IMG/VR virus record: IMGVR_UViG_3300032268_001230
Span: 1 to 32,643 of that record
From: a virus
DNA: 32,643 bases
Direction: 5' to 3' (one strand)
The notes below the pieces were generated by a model. That model ran no database searches, was not told the DNA's origin, and saw only the letters and a program-made list of their open reading frames with translations. A program made the translations under genes and the position numbers. Shown here one piece after another: positions 256-32,253 of the stretch (position 1 is its first letter; every line of letters begins with the position of its first letter).

Positions 256-795
256 TTATATTCCTAATTTTTTTAAATCGTTTATTGCTTGTTCTGTATT
301 TTTATATAAAATTCCAATACCATTTTTAGATTTCCAATTCATAATAGTATCTTCTCTATCGTCAATTAGTATTTTGTTTGGTCCTGCTAAATCAGATTTT
401 TGTTTAGCTTGTTTAAAAACTATTGGGGTACCTGGAATGTTATCTTGTACCCATAATGTTTTTCCTATACGACTTGATTCGTGGTATGAGGGAGCGGTGA
501 GTAAAGTTGGTTTATAAGGTTTAATATAATCCCATAATTCTTTACCACCAGGCATCCAAGGGATACCTCTCCAAAATCTTACTCCAATTTCATTATCAAT
601 AAGTTTCCAAAACATTTCTGTGGCTTTCTTTTCACCATATTTTTGGGTCATTTCAGCTCTGTATTGATCAGGAGACATTCCTGTAAAATGTTCAAAACGT
701 GCTTCGAAGTCGCACAAACATCCATCTAAATCCTGGTATATTTGGTAATTAATTTTAGGTTGAGCTTCTTCGAACAATTTATTTAATGATATCAT
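256..795 (-). CDS. HAD-superfamily phosphatase, 5'(3')-deoxyribonucleotidase-like
   Basis: The 179-residue protein carries the HAD signature. Motif I is DLDGCLCDF with the nucleophile D22 and acid/base D24. Motif II is the Thr in LLTAPS (T100), followed by lysines around 128-133, and motif IV is the acidic pair in ILIDDRED (D145, D146). Size and layout resemble phage and cellular C-type 5'-nucleotidases that remove phosphate from deoxynucleotides, but the substrate cannot be read from sequence; a polynucleotide 3'-phosphatase is an alternative. A short segment (MISLNKLFEEAQ) precedes the catalytic core and resembles the N-termini of several neighbours. Its start lies inside the end of the HNH endonuclease gene (17-base overlap). 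The kinase at 3207-3959 may act on related substrates. Confidence 0.82.
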   Translation of the reverse strand: MISLNKLFEEAQPKINYQIYQDLDGCLCDFEARFEHFTGMSPDQYRAEMTQKYGEKKATEMFWKLIDNEIGVRFWRGIPWMPGGKELWDYIKPYKPTLLTAPSYHESSRIGKTLWVQDNIPGTPIVFKQAKQKSDLAGPNKILIDDREDTIMNWKSKNGIGILYKNTEQAINDLKKLGI

Positions 796-1541: not shown

Positions 1542-1823
1542 CTAAACTTTTTCTATATGATATCCAAAATAAGACTCTTGATCTTCAGGATTATAGTATC
1601 TATATCTAGTTTCATATCTATAATCACCATCTTTATAAACCTCTACTTCTTCATCAGATTCATATTCTTGAACAAAATTTTCAGCTTCCATTTCGCTATT
1701 AAAAAACTTTTCAGTATAAGGAACATCATCTCCACTATAATCGTGAAATATTACTTGGTATTTTTCTTCAGTTACTTCTTCAAGTAATTTGGTTTTTAAT
1801 TCTTTTAAATTTATATCTTTCAT
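1542..1823 (-). CDS. Small acidic hypothetical protein
   Basis: This 93-residue protein is strongly acidic and tyrosine-rich toward its C-terminus (YRYETRYRYYNPEDQ). It opens with a predicted amphipathic helix, MKDINLKELKTKLLEE, like the N-termini of the kinase, the fusion protein and the HAD enzyme. A central pattern of the type 'YQVIFHDYSGDD...F.S..EAENFVQEY' suggests a small alpha/beta fold, but I recognise no family. It starts 13 bases after the stop of the four-domain fusion gene and probably belongs to the same transcript. The HNH gene downstream of it has its own late-type motif. Function unknown. Confidence 0.7.
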   Translation of the reverse strand: MKDINLKELKTKLLEEVTEEKYQVIFHDYSGDDVPYTEKFFNSEMEAENFVQEYESDEEVEVYKDGDYRYETRYRYYNPEDQESYFGYHIEKV

Positions 1824-1836
1824 AATATTTAATTTT

Positions 1837-3207
1837 TTACCATTTTTTACAAGACCAATAGTTAGCTTTCCAACGTGGTCCTGGATTAGCGCAGTTATGT
1901 CTTGCTCTATAAGCTGCTCTTCTTTTAGGGTTTTTGGCTTTAATCACCATTCTTTTACCTTTAGCGGATTTACCACCAAAGCCAAAGTTAACTTTAACTA
2001 CTTTACCCTTATTATTTTTAACATATACTTTAAATTTCTTAATATCACCTTGCATAATTTTACCTAAGGTAACTTTACGTCCACGATATTCAGCTTCAGT
2101 TAAGGTTGATTCAGATAATTGTTTAGTATATTCTTTTAGAAAAGAAATAAATTCTTTTAAATCTTGTTCGTTTTCAACATCATATTCTTCAGTATTGTCA
2201 TGCCCACATTTATGACAAACATAAGGATCATTTCCTCCACTAGCTAAAGGCCAGTGCCACTCACAATTAGTACAATAAATTTCTTCTAATTTACTTTCAA
2301 AAATTTCAGGATTTTCACGTCCAAATTCTCTCATTATTACCCCAGCCATTGCATTAGCTTCATTTTCAGTATTAGAACCATCTTCTCCATTTAATTCATC
2401 ACCATTTAAATTTTGCATGTGATGAACTAACTCATGAGCTAATGTTCTTAAAATATCAGCCATATTTCGGTTATGAACTACTATTTTTATTTCTTGCTCT
2501 TGTGGGTAATAACCTCCAAAACTTTTATATTCTTGTGAGTATGTTGGAGAATTAATAACAAAAACTTTAGGTTTATCTATATTTAATCTATCACAAGCAT
2601 AATCAACAAATCTATCCATTAACGGAGCTTTTTGTGGAGTAAAGTTTTCATGTAATATAGGACCAGGTTTAAATTCATCTTTAGAATAAATAGAAAATAT
2701 TTTTTTAGCATCAATACCTTTTGGTAAAAATGTTTGTATATCTTCTAAATCTTTATTACGAATAGCCGTTCTTAAATCAGTAGCATTTAAACTTTCAAAA
2801 CTACCTGCATCTATTATTTGAACATTAGAATATTTTTCTCTATCTTTATCAATAGAAGCATATCTACTTCTTTCCCCTTTACCATAAAGTACAATAAAAT
2901 CTCTTGATTTGTCTTTTATAATATCAAATACTTCACTTACGGGAGATGATTTAGTTGAAACTTTTATTTCAACATTTGAAGGTAATAAATCTTTGTACAA
3001 AGACCAAACTTTCATTGATTGCTCAGGTGTGAATTCATCTTTAGGCACATTAGACATTATTACTATCACTTCATCAGCAATTTCAGAAGCTTTATTGGCA
3101 ACATTAAAATGCCCTGCGTGTGGTGGTTTGAATTTACCAGGATACAAAGCTACTATAGGAGTAGACTGTTCTAATAGTTCTTGTACTATTTCTTGACCTA
3201 TATTCAT
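1837..3207 (-). CDS. Four-domain fusion: HxGH nucleotidyltransferase, HExxH metallopeptidase, zinc ribbon, DUF5872-like tail
   Basis: This 456-residue protein joins four modules. Residues 18-165 form a cytidylyltransferase/NMNAT-like domain with PGKFKPPHAGH (HxGH at 30-33) and a later TDLRTAIR equivalent to the family's S/TxxxR motif. Residues about 195-300 hold a zinc metallopeptidase-like segment with HELVH at 258-262 and a following ENEANAMAG helix that could supply the third ligand. Residues 312-334 form a C4 zinc ribbon (C312, C315, C331, C334). Residues about 373-456 resemble DUF5872 of marine phages, with YRGRKVTLGK and a terminal RARHNC...WSCKKW. Its start overlaps the kinase stop by one base (TAATG), implying coupled translation. 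Nucleotidyl transfer and proteolysis are inferred from motifs; substrates are unknown. Confidence 0.85.
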   Translation of the reverse strand: MNIGQEIVQELLEQSTPIVALYPGKFKPPHAGHFNVANKASEIADEVIVIMSNVPKDEFTPEQSMKVWSLYKDLLPSNVEIKVSTKSSPVSEVFDIIKDKSRDFIVLYGKGERSRYASIDKDREKYSNVQIIDAGSFESLNATDLRTAIRNKDLEDIQTFLPKGIDAKKIFSIYSKDEFKPGPILHENFTPQKAPLMDRFVDYACDRLNIDKPKVFVINSPTYSQEYKSFGGYYPQEQEIKIVVHNRNMADILRTLAHELVHHMQNLNGDELNGEDGSNTENEANAMAGVIMREFGRENPEIFESKLEEIYCTNCEWHWPLASGGNDPYVCHKCGHDNTEEYDVENEQDLKEFISFLKEYTKQLSESTLTEAEYRGRKVTLGKIMQGDIKKFKVYVKNNKGKVVKVNFGFGGKSAKGKRMVIKAKNPKRRAAYRARHNCANPGPRWKANYWSCKKW

Positions 3208-3959
3208 TAAATAAAATTTTGAATTTTAGACTTTGCAGAACTTAAATCATCAAATTTAGGTAATGTTTTTACCATAGATTCGATATCTTTATTTAATTGA
3301 TCTTTTTCAGCTCTTGATTTAGCCATTTCTTCTGGTGTTTTTGGTTTTCCTATAGCAGAAGAAGCTTGTGTAAATGGTTTAATTAATTCAGGGCTAAATC
3401 CTTTATTAGAATTTTCAGAATCATTATTTAATAATATAAAATTATCTCCAAAGGCCTGCTCGTATACATCAATATTTTTATTAACATCTCTCCAAGTACG
3501 TAAAACAATACCAGGCATTAAACTTCTATCACGTTCTTGATTACGTTCAAGTGAAGTTAAAGGTGAAACATAAATCATTAACATAAATGTCTCGTACCTT
3601 AAATCTTCTAGTTGTTGTTTTTTCTTTAAAACAGGACCCGAAGCAGCACCAGTTCCATCGATAATAATGTTATTTTTATCTTCGATGGATTGTGCTAATT
3701 TATCTTGTGTTGTTTTTCTAGCTTGAGCTTGAAGTTTAGCAGCTTGGGATAATTGATCAGGAGTAAAATCTTTTTGTTTTAAACCAATACCACTTGCTTT
3801 TAAAAGTTCTTCATAAGTGTCATCTGAATTAATAACTTGATATGATGAAGGTAATAACTGTTTTGTTAAAGTGGATTTACCACTACCAGCAGGCCCTGCT
3901 AAAAATATAGCCTTTGGGCTACCCTGTATTTCTTTTAATAAAGTAGCTAATTTAATCAT
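3207..3959 (-). CDS. P-loop kinase, zeta-toxin / polynucleotide-kinase-like
   Basis: The 250-residue protein has a Walker A motif GPAGSGKST at residues 22-30, a downstream INSDD segment and a Walker-B-like hydrophobic strand ending IIIDGTG. It also has an arginine-containing lid region (ERNQERDR). This pattern fits AAA_33/zeta-type kinases that phosphorylate small molecules or nucleic acid ends. The first 14 residues, MIKLATLLKEIQGS, form a separate amphipathic segment before the core. The C-terminal 50 residues are charged and probably helical. A TATTTATA motif lies 15 bases before the ATG. It is followed by the fusion gene with a one-base overlap, and with the HAD phosphatase it could form a split kinase/phosphatase set, though that is inference. 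Confidence 0.83.
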   Translation of the reverse strand: MIKLATLLKEIQGSPKAIFLAGPAGSGKSTLTKQLLPSSYQVINSDDTYEELLKASGIGLKQKDFTPDQLSQAAKLQAQARKTTQDKLAQSIEDKNNIIIDGTGAASGPVLKKKQQLEDLRYETFMLMIYVSPLTSLERNQERDRSLMPGIVLRTWRDVNKNIDVYEQAFGDNFILLNNDSENSNKGFSPELIKPFTQASSAIGKPKTPEEMAKSRAEKDQLNKDIESMVKTLPKFDDLSSAKSKIQNFI

Positions 3960-3983: not shown

Positions 3984-4748
3984 TTAAATTTCTCTTTTAA
4001 CTGTAGTTTTTAATGTTAATATATGGGGTTTAGGAGCAGGATTTTCTAAATCAAATAAAGCCTTAACATTATTAAAAATACTTAAATTTTGTTCTTGTGA
4101 TCTCTCAGATTCAACTATTTCCCAATTTTTACCTTTTAAACGTTTACCTGCTTTATCTTCACCTCTTGATTTTGATTTTAACCATAATACACCACGTCTA
4201 TTTATGGTTTTACCATAACATTCTTCATAACATTGGCTATAAATTGCTGTTTGTAAATCATAAGTAGTTTGTAAGTGGTTAGAAGTTTTTAAATCTAAAA
4301 CCCATAATTCACCATTTAATTCAATAATTAAATCACAAGTTCCTGCTACTCTTAAAGTATCTGAAAATAAATGTACTTCGGTTTCAATTAAAGTTGGTTT
4401 ATGTGTTTCCCAAAAATCAACAAAGTTTAAAAACATTGACCACACATGAGGTGGATAAGCCGGATTACCATATTGATTTAAGAATGAACATTCTTTTCCA
4501 TTTAAATAATCTTCACATAAATTATGAGTTTGAGTACCTTCCTCAGCTGCTTTTTTTACAATGTATTCTGAGGCGTAACCTACCTTTTTTAACCAATCTT
4601 CAAAGTGAGGACCTTTAGGATAATAAGACAAAACATGTGTGATTGAAGGATAATAATCCCCATTTCGTCTGTAAAACCTTGAATCAGGTAATGTGATTTG
4701 TTTGTGATCATCTGAAATTTGGAGAATTCTGTCGTAAGATTTTTTCAT
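3984..4748 (-). CDS. PD-(D/E)XK nuclease, RecB/Cas4-like
   Basis: The 254-residue protein shows the PD-(D/E)XK exonuclease layout. There is a helix with H75 in EEGTQTHNLCEDYL, D139 in GTCDLIIELNG, the catalytic LDLKTS with D152 and K154, and a following Q166xxxY helix (DLQTAIYSQ). The N-terminus contains YYPSITHVLSYYP, typical of phage PDDEXK_1 proteins. It probably degrades or trims DNA during phage replication or recombination, with a divalent metal. Its start overlaps the preceding HNH gene stop by one base. A late-type motif lies between it and the kinase downstream. The nuclease family is well supported; the specific role is not. Confidence 0.87.
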   Translation of the reverse strand: MKKSYDRILQISDDHKQITLPDSRFYRRNGDYYPSITHVLSYYPKGPHFEDWLKKVGYASEYIVKKAAEEGTQTHNLCEDYLNGKECSFLNQYGNPAYPPHVWSMFLNFVDFWETHKPTLIETEVHLFSDTLRVAGTCDLIIELNGELWVLDLKTSNHLQTTYDLQTAIYSQCYEECYGKTINRRGVLWLKSKSRGEDKAGKRLKGKNWEIVESERSQEQNLSIFNNVKALFDLENPAPKPHILTLKTTVKREI

Positions 4749-5401
4749 TAATTTATGTATTTATTTTTATTTCTGTTACCTATTTGTCCAGAATAACCTA
4801 AACCTTCTGCAATTTTAGTGGTTTTAAATAGGGGTTGAGTATTAGAATAGTGAAAACATTTTAACATTTCATCTTCAACTTCTATATTAAAATTAATACA
4901 GGGAACTATATGGTCTATTTCCCAAATGGTGCCATAATTATCCCAATTCATTTCAGGTAAAAATAGACTTTCTAGGTATACTTTATAATAATCTATAGAA
5001 CATCCTAAATATGTTTCGGTTCTAAAGGATTTTGAATTCCCTTTTAATAAACCCCATATTCTACAACTTATACTATTTTTAATTTTAAACCAAACTTTCT
5101 TCTTAAGTCTATACTTATTTTCGTACCCTCTTATCTTATCTTTATTTTGAGATTTCCATAAATCTCCTCTATGTTTGTGTTTAATTTTGTGTTTCTCATA
5201 ATATTGAGCACTAAATTTACAAATTTGAGATTTGTTTTGAAGATAATATTCTTGAATTTTATCTTTATTTTCAGAATTATATGAATTACGATAAACTTTT
5301 ATACAATCCTTACATTTATATTTTAAACCATCTTTTGATGATTTATCTTTAAAAAAACTATTTAAGCTTTTTTCTTGCCCACAATTTAAACACACCTTCA
5401 T
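4748..5401 (-). CDS. HNH homing endonuclease with one N-terminal zinc finger
   Basis: I start this gene at the ATG at 5401 (MKVCLNC, 217 residues). The upstream ATG at 5410 would lie only 5 bases after the TATTTATA motif, while 5401 gives 14 bases, as in four other genes, and matches the paralogue's MKICQKC. A C4/C7/C30/C33 finger is followed by a very basic lysine/tyrosine-rich linker and an HNH core WEIDHI (D163, H164) with NTQPL (N187). It is a free-standing homing endonuclease, paralogous to the gene at 779-1468 but with a single finger. It sits between the primase and PD-(D/E)XK nuclease genes, with a one-base overlap to the latter. Confidence 0.87.
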   Translation of the reverse strand: MKVCLNCGQEKSLNSFFKDKSSKDGLKYKCKDCIKVYRNSYNSENKDKIQEYYLQNKSQICKFSAQYYEKHKIKHKHRGDLWKSQNKDKIRGYENKYRLKKKVWFKIKNSISCRIWGLLKGNSKSFRTETYLGCSIDYYKVYLESLFLPEMNWDNYGTIWEIDHIVPCINFNIEVEDEMLKCFHYSNTQPLFKTTKIAEGLGYSGQIGNRNKNKYIN

Positions 5402-5415
5402 AATTAACATTTTAT

Positions 5416-12181: not shown

Positions 12182-12805
12182 TTAAGATTTATAATATTTA
12201 AATTGCAATTTATCTTTTCTTGTAGATTTAGCTCGACCTTGTAATATATTATCTATACTAGAAGATTTTAAATTTAATTTTAAGGAAGCATATTTTATAC
12301 TTTCAAATATCTCTCCTGTGTTTATACATATAATAGGAATTAAATTTTTACCAATCATGGATTTTTTATAATTTTCTATATGTTCAGGAGTATGCTTAAT
12401 TCCTTTTTTAATTTTACTTCTATACTGTTTTTCAGTAAGGGATTGTACTCTTCCTTTATTTCTACTTATCCCAAGACTAGAATTACTTATTTTATCTTTC
12501 AATTCTTGAGATAAATACCCAGATTTATCTTTAGTTTTAGTTAATTTACAATTTAATCCATTTTCAGATAATACATTATAATATTCTTGCCAATATCTTT
12601 CTTTTGAATTTAATTCTTCTAAACTACATTTTTCTAGAATTTCAAATTTATGTTTTTCAACACTATATTTTTTTAAAGAATAATATAATCTAGGTTGGTT
12701 TTTACATTTTAATTTATAATAAATTTCAAATCTTTTTTCTATATTAATACTTTGACCAATATAAACTTTATTAGAAGGTGAGACTATTTTATAAATTCCT
12801 ACCAT
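12182..12805 (-). CDS. GIY-YIG homing endonuclease with NUMOD-type DNA-binding repeats
   Basis: The 207-residue protein opens with the catalytic motif GIYKI (residues 3-7) and VYIGQS (14-19), with R25 and a later KERYWQEYY helix carrying the likely catalytic glutamate. Residues about 95-155 hold NUMOD3-like SxxxKxKISxxxxG segments. The C-terminus (ICINTGEIFESIKYASLKLN) resembles NUMOD1/IENR1 modules. It is therefore a free-standing homing endonuclease, lodged between two structural genes. A TATTTATA motif lies 22 bases before its ATG. Lysine-rich, very AT-rich coding and the flanking non-coding stretch set it apart from the virion genes. Confidence 0.93.
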   Translation of the reverse strand: MVGIYKIVSPSNKVYIGQSINIEKRFEIYYKLKCKNQPRLYYSLKKYSVEKHKFEILEKCSLEELNSKERYWQEYYNVLSENGLNCKLTKTKDKSGYLSQELKDKISNSSLGISRNKGRVQSLTEKQYRSKIKKGIKHTPEHIENYKKSMIGKNLIPIICINTGEIFESIKYASLKLNLKSSSIDNILQGRAKSTRKDKLQFKYYKS

Positions 12806-31887: not shown

Positions 31888-32253
31888 TTACTCCGCTTTA
31901 GCTGGACGACCTAACTTAATGGTTCCATTCAATCGTTTCGCTTCTAATTCTAACTTACGTTTGTATGAAGCACTTTCCGGGTTTGGTTTACGTCCCAATT
32001 TAACTAATCCTTTAACTGATAACCTCATTTGTCGTTTTGAACCTTCTACTATGGGACGACCTTTCTTAAGTTCACCTGCCTCACGTTTAGCTTCTAATTC
32101 TGCCTTACGAGTGGCATGTTTGCTTTCGGAATTCACGGGTCTTCCACGTTTAATTTCACCTGCCTCACGTTTTGCAGCTAGCTCGGCTAAGCGAATTTGT
32201 CTTACTGAATTTGTGTTAACTGGTCTTCCTAATGTTTTTACTGTGTTTGTCAT
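31888..32253 (-). CDS. Multi-AT-hook DNA-binding protein
   Basis: The 121-residue protein is built from repeats of about 28 residues, each with a charged helix (AELAAKREAGEIKRGRPVN) and a GRP core. The cores are at 9-11, 35-39 (KRGRP), 65-67, 87-90 (GRKP variant) and 115-117. GRP flanked by basic residues is the AT-hook, which binds the minor groove of AT-rich DNA. The protein has a strong promoter, the AAAGGTTATGAC start context and its own terminator, so it is an independent unit. Chromatin-like compaction, host silencing or anti-H-NS-type roles are possible inferences. The KREAGE helix could mediate multimerisation. Confidence 0.82.
   Translation of the reverse strand: MTNTVKTLGRPVNTNSVRQIRLAELAAKREAGEIKRGRPVNSESKHATRKAELEAKREAGELKKGRPIVEGSKRQMRLSVKGLVKLGRKPNPESASYKRKLELEAKRLNGTIKLGRPAKAE

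Follow-up and report, generated by a model that had tools for sequence, protein, structure and literature searches.

The window, by which we mean the whole stretch of DNA analysed, is a virus record consisting of a 32.6-kb fragment with 29% G+C. The sequence-only reading had placed an open frame at 1837–3207; the frame is real, and it lies on the minus strand (3207 to 1837), the plus strand of this interval being filled with stops. The motifs listed by that reading all occur at the residues it gave, namely H30-A-G-H33, H258-E-L-V-H262, C312/C315/C331/C334 and the terminal WSCKKW, and its view of a multidomain protein is borne out by separate domains in the model and by profile and Foldseek matches (Table 1).

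Table 1. Features of the candidate polyprotein gene and of neighbouring genes in the window; cut sites are predictions.
Feature	Position	Strand	Basis
Candidate polyprotein gene, whole, 456 aa, 52 kDa	1837..3207	-	Frame and homologue comparisons
Leader, residues 1-13 (MNIGQEIVQELLE), putative capsid-targeting sequence, predicted cut site E13 at end	3169..3207	-	Model helix 5-13; L11 and E13 invariant in homologues; leader class statistics
Nucleotidyltransferase module, residues 14-187 (HAGH 30-33, NATDLR 141-146), predicted cut site E187 (ILHE) at end	2647..3168	-	Profiles, alignment, model, Foldseek
Zincin-like metallopeptidase module, residues 188-304 (HELVH 258-262, ENEAN 281-285), predicted cut site E304 (IFE) at end	2296..2646	-	Alignment, model, Foldseek
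C4 zinc-ribbon module, residues 305-340 (C312, C315, C331, C334), extra [L/I]xE at E309	2188..2295	-	phrog_8315
Glu-rich linker, residues 341-371, [L/I]xE at E352, E359, E366 and E371; predicted cut at E371 (LTE/AEY) before basic module	2095..2187	-	Triplet scan
Basic C-terminal module, residues 372-456, pI 11.1	1840..2094	-	phrog_7595; charge; 24 distinct copies
Neighbour, P-loop kinase-like protein, leader MIKLATLLKE/IQG	3207..3959	-	Profile matches, leader statistics
Neighbour, 5'-nucleotidase, leader MISLNKLFEE/AQP (MISLNKLFEE/AQPKINYQIYQDLDG)	256..795	-	Profile matches; fused counterpart in G007
93-aa protein between 5'-nucleotidase and polyprotein genes, possible leader sites LLE15/LEE16	1542..1823	-	Sequence

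The first enzymatic module was rightly read as an HxGH nucleotidyltransferase: it passes the curated cut-offs of PF01467 (28.1 bits, cut-off 21) and TIGR00125 (41.1 bits, cut-off 27.7), and its HxGH, (S/N)xTxxR, Rossmann fold and curated score together place it in the HIGH superfamily. HxGH and NATxLR, like HExxH and ENEAN of the next module, are invariant across eight homologues with identity down to 37%. The AlphaFold2 model contains separate domains at residues 18–174 and 191–304, at a mean pLDDT of only 64 and with the C-terminal third badly modelled, and the nucleotidyltransferase domain matched PPAT/NMNAT structures in Foldseek with a probability of 1.00. The NCBIfam equivalog cut-offs for NMNAT/CoaD were not reached, the best scores being 37 bits against 103 for CoaD and 26 against 341 for NadR. 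The module resembles small-molecule adenylyltransferases (CoaD, NMNAT) more closely than protein modifiers, and most likely adenylylates a small molecule of the NMN or pantetheine-phosphate kind. An NAD salvage pathway was considered and dropped, since eight related contigs contained no NAPRTase (PF04095) and no NMNAT/CoaD equivalog cut-off was reached.

The second module combines HExxH, a candidate further acidic ligand (E281/E283, invariant) and the zincin fold of IrrE/M78-like proteins, and in Foldseek the 191–304 domain matched phage IrrE-like proteins (TM 0.84 by target, 2.3 Å). In the model the 190–300 segment is a zincin, for which the invariant Glu281/283 would supply the third ligand, and not the non-catalytic fold against which the earlier reading had cautioned; scores against Pfam peptidase families stayed below gathering (DUF3920, 22.2 vs 27.3; Peptidase_M78, 11.9 vs 22). 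Residues 312–334 match phrog_8315 as a C4 ribbon, and residues 372–456 match phrog_7595 (E 9e-9). The assignment of this last module to DUF5872 was abandoned, as it has no Pfam match even at E<=1; judging by its charge, it is probably DNA-binding. A PADLOC defence-system search returned nothing for the 456-aa protein and only weak P-loop matches for the kinase-like neighbour.

Relatives are encoded at 46 public viral loci, two of them over the whole length, so the suspicion that the frame is an assembly artefact can be set aside. Homologues are sometimes fused and sometimes separate, modules being gained, lost or split from one relative to another, and among the relatives at these loci the exact four-module set occurs in the window only. 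Three homologues (L004, L006 and L007) terminate exactly at ...NPEIFE, corresponding to the end of the zincin module (E304); L001 and L002 are without the ribbon, and L005, L007 and L008 carry additional modules. In G006 one gene encodes the nucleotidyltransferase–zincin part and another the ribbon–basic part, and both products have a leader. The neighbouring 5'-nucleotidase also has a fused counterpart, the last module of a 610-aa polyprotein in contig G007, with the joint ...IYE/GLKTEVKE/KYELYCDMDG. The separate and fused forms are 47% identical, and because homology begins at residue 17 of the separate protein and the fused copy stands behind V-x-Glu in G007, leader and joint hold equivalent positions. 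The proposal of a single enzyme that first transfers a nucleotidyl group to a target and afterwards cleaves that target found no support, because the modules are freely dropped, inserted or split, because the joints resemble protease sites, and because the nucleotidyltransferase is CoaD/NMNAT-like rather than like protein modifiers.

Other arrangements of these modules were also observed. In two contigs (L094:6289-8121 and L060:8456-9751) a module of ParB-like appearance (KYWLVAGEVILALYRA...) lies between nucleotidyltransferase and zincin. Pelagibacter phage Aegir, a short (18-kb), siphovirus-labelled record, encodes the basic C-terminal module alone (L111:2525-2764; 79 aa, no leader) near a head morphogenesis gene. 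In another phage group (L025, L037 and L040; 542-691 aa), different small modules precede the same basic module, with joints of the xxNEA/xxTEA type.

The baseplate wedge proteins of the window and of Flavobacterium phage immuto share 50% identity; immuto has a T4-like gp20, gp23 and prohead protease. The matching gene slot of immuto holds a primase, an exonuclease, one further gene, a 907-aa nucleotidyltransferase–zincin fusion (QQO92100.1) and a 5'-nucleotidase. The fusion shares with the window protein its slot, the order nucleotidyltransferase then zincin, and the adjacent 5'-nucleotidase; it differs in having an extra N-terminal nucleotidyltransferase and a second zincin, and its joints are [L/M]xE, with no clear leader at the annotated start.

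Residues 1–13 of the window protein (MNIGQEIVQELLE) have the form known from T4-type internal head proteins, an N-terminal leader of about 10 residues with a prohead-protease-like Glu end. Such leaders are frequent in the related phages: Glu at positions 8–14 within [L/I]xE was found in 211 of 1033 proteins (identical N-termini removed) against 92 by shuffling. They are also concentrated by head genes, both in immuto (16/28 vs 15/152, p 1e-7) and in G006 (15/32 vs 8/92, p 1e-5). The class MI.L..[IL]L.E occurs 36 times against 0.07 expected, related genes being counted more than once. A further class, RMQxLAGIxxE, copies the final residues of the scaffold protein, occurring at six scaffold C-termini and eight N-termini and nowhere else in 403,000 residues. 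In the window, the P-loop kinase-like neighbour is probably fellow cargo of the 456-aa protein; for the 93-aa protein this is uncertain.

A related observation concerns L061:10057-11082, L095:10054-11085, L092:10700-11782, L083:5335-6576, L104:5363-6577 and L076:983-2224: eight unrelated proteins have as their N-terminal leader a repeat of the scaffold's extreme C-terminus, SRMQxLAGIK. Binding to the capsid protein or the core may be the role of this tail.

The window protein contains eight [L/I]xE triplets (Glu 13, 187, 304, 309, 352, 359, 366 and 371), every one of them situated in the leader, at a joint or in the linker, so that the cores (18–179, 191–303 and 375–456) have none. The sequence-only reading mentioned neither the 13-residue leader nor these triplets at every joint. 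In the cores, 3.8 triplets would be expected from shuffling the whole sequence (p 0.015 for none) and 2.6 from shuffling the cores only (p 0.06). The linkers are Glu-rich, so that some triplets are to be expected there. The AlphaFold2 model, which is blind to the triplets, has a helix at 5–13 and confidence minima at 180–188 and 305–311. The triplets look like the sites cut by T4-type prohead proteases, which end in Glu, and L or I is preferred at P3 in sites of T4 gp21. The basic C-terminal module is preceded by [L/I/V]-x-Glu in 24 of 24 distinct copies, with P3 (L, I or V) and P1 (Glu) fixed and P2 and P4 variable.

In a set of 370 non-redundant proteins that have module edges, an edge lay within 4 residues of a triplet in 110 of 449 cases in leader-bearing proteins (58.8 expected, p below 0.001), whereas proteins without a leader gave 65 of 898 (62.3 expected, p 0.37); BLAST edges are fuzzy and many are just alignment ends, so that the contrast outweighs the percentages, and shuffle tests do not account for relatedness among proteins. 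This comparison supersedes an earlier boundary test with all proteins pooled, which was diluted (20 of 87 edges vs 11% expected). The absence of an edge effect in leaderless proteins argues against the protein being an ordinary cytoplasmic multidomain enzyme in which [L/I]xE is a by-product of Glu-rich helical linkers, as do the clustering of leaders by head genes and the finding of a cyanophage counterpart in virions. Such an enzyme would accord with the Glu-rich linkers and with the abundance of NMNAT-like enzymes among phage metabolic genes (PMC9503650), and we consider it very improbable.

The cyanophage counterparts are NMNAT-like proteins detected by mass spectrometry in virions of T4-like cyanophages, for which the authors were unable to rule out contamination (PMC9602691; PMC10665884). 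The protein of S-SCSM1 begins MKSFLQFLKE/AAES, and in nine such cyanophage proteins position 8 is hydrophobic and position 10 is Glu, with A, S or T coming next. This MKSFxxF[L/I/F]xE/A start looks like T4 capsid-targeting sequences and, as far as the sequences tell, is the same construction as in the window protein with another leader class. In S-SCSM1 ORF91 and S-CREM2 ORF154 (NMNAT/cytidyltransferase virion proteins), as in the window protein, a leader precedes a nucleotidyltransferase, theirs having [L/I/F]xE at residue 10; they differ in leader class and downstream modules, similarity is limited to single domains, and the virion detection by mass spectrometry is theirs. Over the S-SCSM1 proteome, most proteins with virion tags are tail proteins, and three non-tail virion proteins are without a leader.

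Capsid proteins of related phages carry triplets in their propeptides, the last near residue 60, and triplets also stand in scaffold proteins. Of 16 related contigs, 9 encode a Peptidase_S77 prohead protease that scores over the cut-off, and G001, the contig with the closest homologue, is one of them. The window is a genome fragment in which head genes are lacking, and the protease of its own phage is predicted from these relatives. The T4 protease gp21 cleaves behind Glu; it trims Alt as well as the internal proteins, and gp23 loses 65 residues to it (PMC5694885; PMC9958956). A capsid-targeting sequence takes the T4 internal proteins into the core (PMC3012670).

Considering these findings, we infer, with a probability of roughly three in four, that the product of this gene of a T4-like phage is a polyprotein packaged in the head, to which its leader would direct it and where the prohead protease would cleave it into separate enzymes. 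The first 13 residues would act as the capsid-targeting sequence that pulls the chain into the prohead core, where the S77 prohead protease of the phage would cut after Glu at [L/I]-x-Glu, removing the leader at E13 and severing the joints at E187, at E304/E309 and at one or more of E352–E371. The mature head would then hold four products, namely the nucleotidyltransferase, the zincin, the small ribbon and a strongly basic peptide that probably binds DNA, and the released modules may be ejected with the DNA into the bacterium and act early in infection. The passing suggestion of a packaged multifunctional effector in the sequence-only reading is thereby supported, the leader and joints suggesting how packaging might work.

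Packaging could also leave the chain whole, or remove the leader alone, giving one multifunctional injected protein like T4 Alt or the N4 virion RNA polymerase. The latter is packaged unprocessed (PMC5512222), and targeting is explicable by the leader site alone; this alternative nevertheless appears unlikely given [L/I]xE with fixed P3 and P1 at every joint, the match of joints with module edges, and the existence of modules as separate leader-bearing proteins. Release of the modules by the embedded zincin, following the polyvalent-protein proposal of Iyer et al., would be consistent with the intact HExxH of the window protein and with the frequent presence of zincins in polyvalent proteins, for which a role in processing has been proposed (PMC5512222). 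The same triplets, however, precede modules in proteins without a zincin (L018, L020, L021 and C48C1) and stand in capsid and scaffold proteins, making this route highly unlikely.

A polyprotein cut by the prohead protease would resemble T4 IPI–IPIII and Alt in its short N-terminal leader with a Glu site, a predicted S77 protease, a probable cargo role and genes near head genes; T4 cargo, however, is single- or few-domain and end-trimmed, whereas the window protein comprises several enzymes with sites between them. The window protein also falls in the broad class of polyvalent proteins, since a single phage chain unites a number of dissimilar effector-type domains that relatives combine differently. 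The polyvalent proteins of Iyer et al. (2017; PMC5512222) likewise join many effector-type domains per chain, zincin included, with free module shuffling, whereas the passages searched mention no nicotinamide/CoA-type adenylyltransferase or T4-type leader, and release was ascribed to the embedded zincin rather than a head protease. The evidence presented here adds that the head protease's motif marks module joints, including in proteins without a zincin. As an analogy only, retroviral Gag-Pol similarly carries enzymes fused behind a targeting region into the particle, where a maturation protease releases them; there is no homology, and in the phage the protease is a separate gene.

Beyond the window, we lean towards the view that a cargo system is widespread among T4-like phages whose hosts are aquatic bacteria. 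Common head-targeting leaders, at least one class of them copying the scaffold's C-terminal tail, would be combined in it with the prohead protease as a general polyprotein processor, and [L/I]xE joints would allow enzymes to be joined, separated and swapped, a Gag-Pol-like arming of the head. A literature search, with most subscription papers outside its reach, found no earlier report of enzyme polyproteins cut by a prohead protease. If correct, an N-terminal leader with [L/I]xE joints would provide a sequence-readable list of injected enzymes for many uncultured T4-like phages, and the prohead protease would gain a second job, the maturation of packaged enzymes. An explanation would also be at hand for the recurrence of NMNAT-like proteins in virions of cyanophages, which those who found them were unable to tell from contamination.

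Several further genes of the window were noted. Two endonuclease VII/HNH-like genes (779-1468 and 4748-5410, both on the minus strand), with N-terminal zinc-ribbon segments, lie among the cargo genes and have the look of mobile (homing) endonucleases. Between structural genes (12182-12805, minus strand) there is a probable GIY-YIG homing endonuclease, read from its sequence. Finally, a 121-aa frame at 31888-32253 on the minus strand contains a repeated GRP-type motif (GRPVNSESKH...KREAGELKKGRP) that is AT-hook-like.
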